Source of the DNA: Micrococcales bacterium | GTDB taxonomy: Bacteria > Actinomycetota > Actinomycetes > Actinomycetales > Microbacteriaceae | Reading direction: 5' to 3' | DNA length: 64,000 nt | Assembly (NCBI GenBank): GCA_024639965.1 | Contig: JAHEGC010000006.1 | Location: 6,796 to 70,795, forward strand | Shown: positions 3,727-7,295 of the stretch, in pieces | How positions within the stretch are numbered: the first letter of the stretch is position 1 | Layout: each line of letters begins with the position of its first letter | Notes under the pieces: generated by a model | What the model was told of the DNA's origin: nothing | Database searches by the model: none | The model's input: the letters and a program-made list of their open reading frames with translations, nothing else | Translations under genes and position numbers: made by a program

Positions 3727-4586
3727 GCGAGGGACTTCGTGTGCCACACCGTCTTCGCTTCGACGAATCGTGCGATTCGATCGAAGGATTTTTCGGTGGC
3801 GCCGAACGTGCGAGGGCGAATGACGCGCATGAGGGTCTCGGCGGCCGAGCGTTCCGCCTCGACGGCGACCTCGCCCTCGACACCCGTGAGGTCGAGTGAA
3901 TTGACGTCGGCGTGTGACGCGAGCCACGGCAGAATCTCGGCAACGTTCCCCGTGAGGATGTTCACCACACCCCCGGGTACATCGCTTGTCGCGAGCACCT
4001 CGGCGAAGGACATCGCCACGCACGGTGCCGACTCACTCGCCAGAACCACGACGCTGTTGCCCATCGTGAGGATCGGAGCGATTGATGCGACCAGTCCGAG
4101 CAACGAGGACCCCTCGGCGTTCGGCGCGACGGCGACCGCCACCCCGACCGAATCCGGGACCGTGAGGTTGAAGAACGGACCGGCGACGGGGTTCGCCCCA
4201 CCGAAGACTTGCGCGAATTTGTCGGTCCACCCCGCGTACCACACGAGAGTGTCGATGGCCGCGCGAACTTCGGCCTTCGCCGCCGCGGGTGTTGCGCCGG
4301 TCGAATCGATGATTTCCTGGGCGAACTGAGCGCCGCGCCCCTCGAGCATCTCGGCGACGCGATAGAGAACCTGCCCTCGGTTGTACGCGGTGGCACCGGC
4401 CCAGCTGGACCAAGCGGAACGCGCGGCGACGACCGCATCCCGCGCGTCCTTACGGCTCGCGGTCGCGACGTTGGCGAGGAACCCGCCGTCGGGTCGATTG
4501 ACGGCGTGGGTGCGACCCGATTCCGAGCGGGGGAATTTACCGCCGACGAAGAGCTTGTAGGTCTTGGGGATTGTCATGTCGCTCAT
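3723..4586 (-). CDS. Half-length aldehyde dehydrogenase-like protein lacking the catalytic region (pseudo-ALDH)
   Basis: N-terminal ALDH/Rossmann half (KLFVGGKF...VVNILTGN...LDLTGVEGE) but no ELGGK Glu and no catalytic Cys; 4-bp ATGA overlap with the upstream ALDH. Confidence 0.8.
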   Translation of the reverse strand: MSDMTIPKTYKLFVGGKFPRSESGRTHAVNRPDGGFLANVATASRKDARDAVVAARSAWSSWAGATAYNRGQVLYRVAEMLEGRGAQFAQEIIDSTGATPAAAKAEVRAAIDTLVWYAGWTDKFAQVFGGANPVAGPFFNLTVPDSVGVAVAVAPNAEGSSLLGLVASIAPILTMGNSVVVLASESAPCVAMSFAEVLATSDVPGGVVNILTGNVAEILPWLASHADVNSLDLTGVEGEVAVEAERSAAETLMRVIRPRTFGATEKSFDRIARFVEAKTVWHTKSLA

Positions 4587-6041: not shown

Positions 6042-7229
6042 TTAGTCGATCGTCACGTAGTCGGCGCCGCTGTAATGACCGCTCGTCATGCGCTGGCGTT
6101 GGAGGAGAACGTCGTTGAGCAAGCTCGACGCCCCGAAGCGGAAGAGGTAGGGGTGGAGCCATTCATCGCCCGCGATCTCGGAGACTGCGACGAGGTAGCG
6201 GATGGCGTCTTTGGATTGGCGGATTCCGCCGGCCGGCTTGACCCCGATTCGCTCGCCCGTGAGAGCGAACCAATCGCGCACCACTTCGAGCATGAGCACG
6301 GTCGTGGGGAGCGTCGCCGCGGGTTGTACCTTTCCGGTCGACGTTTTGATGAAGTCGGCACCGGCGAGGATGGCGAGCCACGACGCGCGTTTGATGTTGT
6401 CGTAGGTGCGCAGTTCGCCCGTCTCCAGGATGACCTTGAGGTGGGCGTGTGTTCCGTCGGGGCGTTCACACGCTCGCCGAACGGCGGCAATCTCTCGGAA
6501 CACCAGGTCGAGGTCACCGGCGAGGAACGCTCCGCGATCGATGACCATGTCGATTTCGGTCGCCCCTTTCGACACCGCGTAGCGCGTATCGGCGAGTTTG
6601 ACCTCGAGAATCGACCGGCCACTCGGGAACGCGGTCGCGACGGATGCGACTCCTATACCCGTGAGGCCATCTCCCGCGCGATCCCCGAGGGCCGCGACCG
6701 CGTGTTCCACCATGTCGGGATAGACGCACACCGCAGCGACACGGGGAGCCGTCGGGTCGGCGGGGTCCGGGACGACCGCTTTCTGCACGAGTGACCGCAC
6801 CTTGCCCGGAGTGTCAGCGCCCTCGAGAGTGGTCAGGTCGATGAGCCGAATGATGGTGTCGAGCGCCTCGCGCTTCGATTCGTTCTTGACGGATCGTGTC
6901 GCGATTCGTGCAGCACGCCCCTCCAGTCCGATCGCATCGACGCCCGGAAGGGCAGTCACGAAGGCGCGCAACGAGGCTGAGTCCACGACGCCGTGGGCGC
7001 GCGAACGCGCGGTCGGGATGATTCCCGACGACGGGGCGGCTGCGGGCGAAGCCGCGTCGTTCGCAATGGTGATGGAAACGAGCCCCGACTCGCGCGCGAG
7101 AGCGAGCAGTCGACCCGCCTTCCACCGCGTGATGGAGAGAATCTCCCCGATCTCGTCCTGGGTCTTGCCCTCGTCGTAATACAGACGCGCCGCGCGGAGC
7201 GCGAGAGCGGAATCGCTGTTCTCGGTCAC
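6042..7229 (-). CDS. deoC: SorC/DeoR-type HTH fused to deoxyribose-phosphate aldolase
   Basis: N-term ALRAARLYYDEGKTQDEIGEILSITRWKAGRLLALARESGLVSITI (HTH); C-term IDLTTLEGADTP...AVCVYP...GADFIKTSTGK...GVKPAGGIR (DERA). Confidence 0.88.
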   Translation of the reverse strand: MTENSDSALALRAARLYYDEGKTQDEIGEILSITRWKAGRLLALARESGLVSITIANDAASPAAAPSSGIIPTARSRAHGVVDSASLRAFVTALPGVDAIGLEGRAARIATRSVKNESKREALDTIIRLIDLTTLEGADTPGKVRSLVQKAVVPDPADPTAPRVAAVCVYPDMVEHAVAALGDRAGDGLTGIGVASVATAFPSGRSILEVKLADTRYAVSKGATEIDMVIDRGAFLAGDLDLVFREIAAVRRACERPDGTHAHLKVILETGELRTYDNIKRASWLAILAGADFIKTSTGKVQPAATLPTTVLMLEVVRDWFALTGERIGVKPAGGIRQSKDAIRYLVAVSEIAGDEWLHPYLFRFGASSLLNDVLLQRQRMTSGHYSGADYVTID

Positions 7230-7295
7230 GCGTTCATGTTACGCGCAAATGAGCAGAACGCCAACATCTGCGCAACTGGCGCAACAGCAGTGGCG

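Follow-up and report, generated by a model that had tools for sequence, protein, structure and literature searches.

Does a DNA-binding domain joined to a metabolic enzyme form a repressor that controls its own operon, and if so, how did such a protein come about? The question is raised by one gene in a 64,000-nucleotide stretch of DNA from a Microbacteriaceae genome (the window), in which a helix-turn-helix (HTH) of the SorC/DeoR type precedes deoxyribose-phosphate aldolase (DERA, encoded by deoC). An earlier note on this DNA had suggested that the enzyme takes the place of the sugar-binding domain of a SorC regulator. We examined the architecture, reality and origin of the fusion, and weighed how the protein might act.

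An HTH and a complete aldolase in one reading frame

Translation of the open reading frame at 6042-7229 (minus strand) gave 395 residues with zero internal stops; its parts and the neighboring features are listed in Table 1. Pfam DeoC matched residues 126-373 above the cut-off (E 2e-20), the NCBIfam deoC equivalog TIGR00126 was reached with 164.9 bits against a cut-off of 117.3, and E. coli DERA aligned to residues 126-375 (E 1e-44). The catalytic residues D227, K295 (the Schiff-base lysine) and K331, equivalent to E. coli D102, K167 and K201, are all present. With a domain above curated cut-offs and the catalytic Asp and two Lys in place, the protein belongs to the DeoC family, and the fused aldolase is apparently catalytically active. 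At the N terminus, residues 3-59 best matched the B. subtilis-type SorC repressor DeoR (7e-9), with LsrR listed next (1e-6), and also matched the solved DNA-binding domains of DeoR and SorC. These matches were partial and far under the whole-family cut-offs, because the fusion has the HTH alone of a SorC family protein. An AlphaFold2 model predicted helices at residues 3-19, 24-30 and 35-47 with block-mean pLDDT values of 66-81, a linker with pLDDT below 50 (residues 52-66), and a DERA part that is confident from about residue 70. Altogether, the profile matches, the E. coli alignment and the HTH matches bear out the earlier note's description of an HTH and a complete DERA in one frame.

Table 1. 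Positions of the fusion gene, its parts and its neighbors in the window
Feature	Coordinates	Strand	Remarks
Half aldehyde dehydrogenase, 287 aa	3723..4586	minus	Conserved third gene of the operon; without catalytic domain
Aldehyde dehydrogenase, 482 aa	4583..6031	minus	Next gene of the operon; order conserved in genus and family
HTH::DERA fusion gene	6042..7229	minus	395 aa; GTG start at 7229-7227; kept in 13 genomes of the genus
DERA part, residues 79-395, with N-terminal helices	6045..6995	minus	D227, K295 and K331 intact
Variable linker, residues 56-78	6996..7064	minus	Site of the lost ~250-residue sugar-binding domain
V-x-I-x-I dimerization strand, residues 51-55	7065..7079	minus	From alignment; role per PMC11229326
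SorC/DeoR-type HTH, residues 8-55	7065..7208	minus	Recognition helix TRWKAGRLL; profile and structure matches, alignment
-10-like element TAACAT	7236..7241	minus	6 nt before the GTG start; putative
Putative operator palindrome TGCTCATTTGCGCG	7242..7255	minus	In the promoter spacer; conserved; only such site in the genome
-35-like element TTGGCG (most relatives TTGGCA)	7259..7264	minus	17 nt before the -10 element; putative
Second, upstream operator half-site TGCGCAGATG	7265..7274	minus	Abuts the -35 element; from conservation

The hallmark of the SorC family is a C-terminal sugar-binding domain of ~250 residues, PF04198 (PMC11229326). The fusion has the N-terminal HTH with its beta strand and, judging by conservation, an operator overlapping the promoter of the operon that would be regulated, but lacks PF04198. 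Without that hallmark it does not count as a SorC regulator, though it may work like one.

The same full-length architecture, at 79-84% identity, was found in 11 further genomes of the genus, together with one copy cut by a contig end. In all, 13 genomes of the genus are fused; one of the other two is unfused, and the second (61% complete) is without the gene. The earlier note had itself pointed out that a frameshift or assembly error joining two genes, or a translation start downstream of the HTH, would leave no fusion protein. The fused genomes seen are all MAGs and the sole isolate of the genus is unfused, which leaves some room for an artefact; against it, 13 stop-free assemblies carry the fusion, with like neighbor genes wherever these were looked at. 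Between residues 50 and 125, no ATG, GTG or TTG was common to at least six aligned fused rows, and the GTG start aligns with that of sorC in the unfused sister. We therefore ruled out both an assembly artefact and a start after the HTH, and regard any such explanation as exceedingly improbable.

The fusion arose in place, with loss of the sugar-binding domain

The closest unfused relative, the isolate Microbacteriaceae bacterium MWH-Ta3, has a complete sorC followed by a separate deoC. Its gene order, ribF-sorC-deoC-aldh-aldh', is matched at the same place in the fused genomes by ribF-[HTH::deoC]-aldh-aldh'. PF04198 is present in MWH-Ta3 and absent genome-wide from all 13 fused genomes, and no second free SorC regulator was found in the genome carrying the fusion. 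The DNA upstream of MWH-Ta3 sorC and that upstream of the fused genes align through the -35 element, the -10 element and the GTG start, with equal distances from -10 to start; the fusion gene therefore begins at the former sorC start. By this alignment, the lost segment is that from the dimerization strand to the deoC start. The comparison thus upholds the view that the enzyme stands in place of the SorC sugar-binding domain.

In a DERA tree, the fused rows made up one side of a branch (83/30 support) that 82% of the bootstrap trees recovered; their sister was MWH-Ta3, at 100/100. Read from this tree, the fusion has one origin (82% of bootstraps). The carriers are a group of small-genome bacteria, represented by MAGs that probably come from lakes; the genome of the fusion carrier is 1.37 Mb. 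Sampling of other genomes from the family (398), order (396) and phylum (396) turned up no further fusion, a survey that would overlook strongly diverged fusions whose HTH is of a different kind; the earlier note's idea of looking for this architecture in other Actinomycetota yielded nothing beyond the genus in this sample. In one MAG (G005, 79% complete), a second, different copy of the HTH::DERA N terminus lies at a contig end (locus L031, contig C36, 1501-1887); it is either a duplicate or a mixed-in strain.

The operon and a likely route of deoxynucleoside breakdown

The 482-aa aldehyde dehydrogenase encoded behind the fusion gene would convert acetaldehyde to acetate. No second DeoC-domain protein was found in the genome, the fusion being the only one, and thymidine phosphorylase is present. 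From these two findings and known pathways, deoxynucleosides are likely broken down to deoxyribose-5-phosphate and then to acetaldehyde and glyceraldehyde-3-phosphate, with acetate formed by way of the aldehyde dehydrogenase. The 287-aa protein matches the first half of the aldehyde dehydrogenase profile only. It has equal length, at 56-78% identity, across the genus, the family and other families of the order, and because its length is conserved it is not a broken gene.

The DNA-binding domain and its operator are conserved

We compared selection along the fusion and obtained pN/pS values of 0.16 for the HTH, 0.55 for the linker, whose mean identity among fused sequences is 51%, and 0.105 for the DERA part; by this measure, the HTH is under purifying selection. 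In the recognition helix, T34 (T or S in SorC), R35, W36, K37, G39, R40 and L41 are invariant across the fused rows, and R35, W36, K37, G39, R40 and L41 are identical in all SorC rows too, bar one W. The alignment to B. subtilis DeoR pairs R35 with R34 and R40 with R39, two DeoR residues seen to touch DNA bases in crystal structures (PMC11229326). A V-x-I-x-I type strand is the dimerization strand of the SorC DNA-binding domain (PMC11229326); V51, I53 and I55 of this strand are kept in the fusion, and the intervening R and E, which do not vary among the SorC rows, are changed to S, A or T. This pattern suggests that the DNA-binding dimer is kept and that contacts to the removed domain are lost. 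Within the DERA part, residues specific to the fusion, candidates for interdomain contacts, amount to four weak ones (100, 224, 274 and 352). As far as sequence tells, the HTH is still functional and would bind DNA.

A 14-mer near the SorC operator TGCTCATATGAGCA stands 5' of sorC in all 45 unfused sorC-deoC operons (11-14 of 14 positions matching) and in 12 of 12 named fused loci (11-12 of 14). At deoC loci without an upstream SorC, 19 of 21 gave matches no better than shuffles, over a search stretch that was much longer. Such loci, about 21 in number and without an upstream SorC HTH, occur in Microbacterium, Subtercola, Leifsonia and others (L081, L083, L092, L095 and others); regulator and operator seem to have been lost together there.

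In the spacer before the fused genes, the most conserved stretch is the block TGCGCAAATGTTGGCAATCTGCTCATATGCGCGTAGGGT, which comprises the upstream half-site, a -35-like TTGGCA, the palindrome inside the 17-nt spacer and the -10-like hexamer. The palindrome of the fused genes is imperfect and lies in the spacer, whereas the sites of the family lie upstream of -35 instead. The operator is unique in the genome; the target of the fusion protein would therefore be its own operon. A wider regulon was ruled out, since the remaining one-mismatch matches did not exceed the number from a reversed-pattern control. With two mismatches allowed, the pattern by itself is not rare in the window, so the operator draws its weight from conservation and not from rarity. 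The promoter assignment likewise relies on conservation, as a strict sigma-70 scan called no promoter and the elements are weak relative to the sigma-70 consensus. In the fused genes, as in MWH-Ta3 sorC, 6 nt separate the -10-like hexamer from the GTG, so the fusion mRNA is probably leaderless. Folded as DNA, the 66-base spacer gave no signal of strand structure (z -0.3). In one fused genome (L057 of G003, 4014-4103), the promoter region has clearly diverged and a symmetric site, TGCGCATCTGCGCA, is kept; it either lies immediately upstream of the -10 region or overlaps it.

DeoR likewise binds a two-part operator overlapping its own promoter (PMC11229326). Because the HTH and the operator region before the gene (7230-7295) are both conserved, self-regulation, as the earlier note had surmised, is the likeliest use of the domain. 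The HTH might instead be a remnant that no longer binds DNA, kept for its start codon and expression signals or as a folding aid; the fusion did inherit the sorC start, and HTH identity is lower between fused and SorC proteins (62%) than among SorC proteins (74%). Purifying selection on the HTH, the invariant recognition helix and the retained operator argue against such a remnant, and we consider it unlikely.

A probable autogenous repressor-enzyme, with or without a ligand

We conclude that the fusion gene probably encodes an autogenous repressor-enzyme produced by one in-frame deletion. In the ancestor of the clade, this deletion would have joined the sorC start to the adjoining deoC, giving a single gene in which the cell's only DERA bears the DNA-binding head of a repressor. 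The beta strand that was kept would hold the HTH dimers together, with the natural DERA dimer probably forming a bridge between them. Their target would be the two-part, promoter-overlapping operator at 7242-7274, and by binding there they would repress the fusion gene together with the aldehyde dehydrogenase genes that follow it. E. coli DERA is a dimer. SorC repressors are dimers of dimers in which the C-terminal domains bridge the two operator halves (PMC11229326). By analogy, a DERA dimer could take the place of this bridge.

The autogenous repressor-enzyme could respond to its substrate or be blind to it, and these sub-cases are about equally likely, because the linker is variable and modeled with low confidence and because SorC relatives have Asn for the presumed Schiff-base lysine of DeoR. 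It is quite conceivable, if short of an even chance, that deoxyribose-5-phosphate has no effect on DNA binding and that the protein is a ligand-blind autorepressor that caps the enzyme level. In a small genome, induction would then have been given up in favor of plain homeostasis when the sugar-binding domain was lost. No route for allostery is apparent in the loose linker, with its high pN/pS and low pLDDT; the dimerization strand has lost the R and E of its other face, and the fused clade has few DERA residues of its own. Against this stands the retention of the tether across 13 genomes, which suggests that it is useful; moreover, a DERA that bridges the operator halves as the SorC C-terminal domain does could let a ligand act through that bridge.

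About as plausible is a repressor whose hold on the operator is loosened when deoxyribose-5-phosphate occupies the DERA active site. That site is intact, and the inducer of B. subtilis DeoR (PMC11229326) is also the ligand of DERA. A bifunctional protein of this sort that works is Q1, an engineered chimera of an HTH and shikimate kinase: with its kinase active it repressed, but it was not inducible in vivo, which its authors link to its own catalysis (PMC3602430). Against such sensing, an active aldolase would likewise use up its own inducer. The identity of the ancestral inducer is itself uncertain. The closest solved relative of the lost repressor is DeoR (E 7e-44). The lysine of the DeoR motif VVQLKGG (position 141, in chain numbering set by R34/R39), which we take to be the Schiff-base residue, is Asn in MWH-Ta3 and, without exception, in the SorC relatives examined for this motif (39 of 39); the ancestral inducer may therefore have been bound otherwise. 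In DeoR, the effector binds covalently (PMC11229326). Somewhat more tentative is the fullest form of a ligand-responsive protein, a natural enzyme-repressor that has kept its catalysis: its aldolase active site would bind deoxyribose-5-phosphate as a Schiff base, cleave it and, in response to it, lift repression, so that flux itself would set expression.

Relation to known systems and significance

PutA, BirA and NadR are trigger enzymes or enzyme-repressor fusions in which one protein is both an enzyme and a regulator of its own pathway; HTH::DERA, with its conserved HTH and operator, would share this dual role with them, and the folds are unrelated. Enzyme-regulators are a known kind, and the pairing of HTH and DERA was not found in the searched literature: full texts, with subscription papers mostly outside, gave no description of such a fusion or of its emergence through loss of the effector domain of a SorC protein. 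Like the SorC/DeoR repressors (B. subtilis DeoR, 8r7y; E. coli LsrR; K. pneumoniae SorC), the fusion has the HTH and dimerization strand and, as predicted here, a two-part operator overlapping the promoter and control of a deoC operon; unlike them, it is without the sugar-binding domain and has an apparently active aldolase there instead. It shares with E. coli DeoC (1jcl, 1ktn) the whole catalytic domain and residues, with 250 residues aligned, but bears an N-terminal DNA-binding domain. BzdR and Q1 (HTH plus shikimate kinase) are likewise regulators made by joining a DNA-binding domain to a metabolic enzyme (PMC3602430). Catalysis is lost in BzdR and Q1 was built in the laboratory, whereas HTH::DERA is natural and its enzyme apparently active.

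Regulators are thought to arise by fusion of a DNA-binding domain with an enzyme, but intermediates whose enzyme still works have come mainly from laboratory reconstruction (PMC3602430). A single fusion event is caught here along with an unfused sister, the operator of the ancestor and 13 descendants, which makes any gain, loss or change of sensing directly measurable. In the fused genomes of this genus, the enzyme probably doubles as the switch of the operon that encodes it, which would make it a natural case of that mostly laboratory-built step. The fusion also illustrates how genome reduction can fold a regulator into the enzyme under its control, and, if the protein is ligand-responsive, the result would be a compact self-regulating enzyme module.
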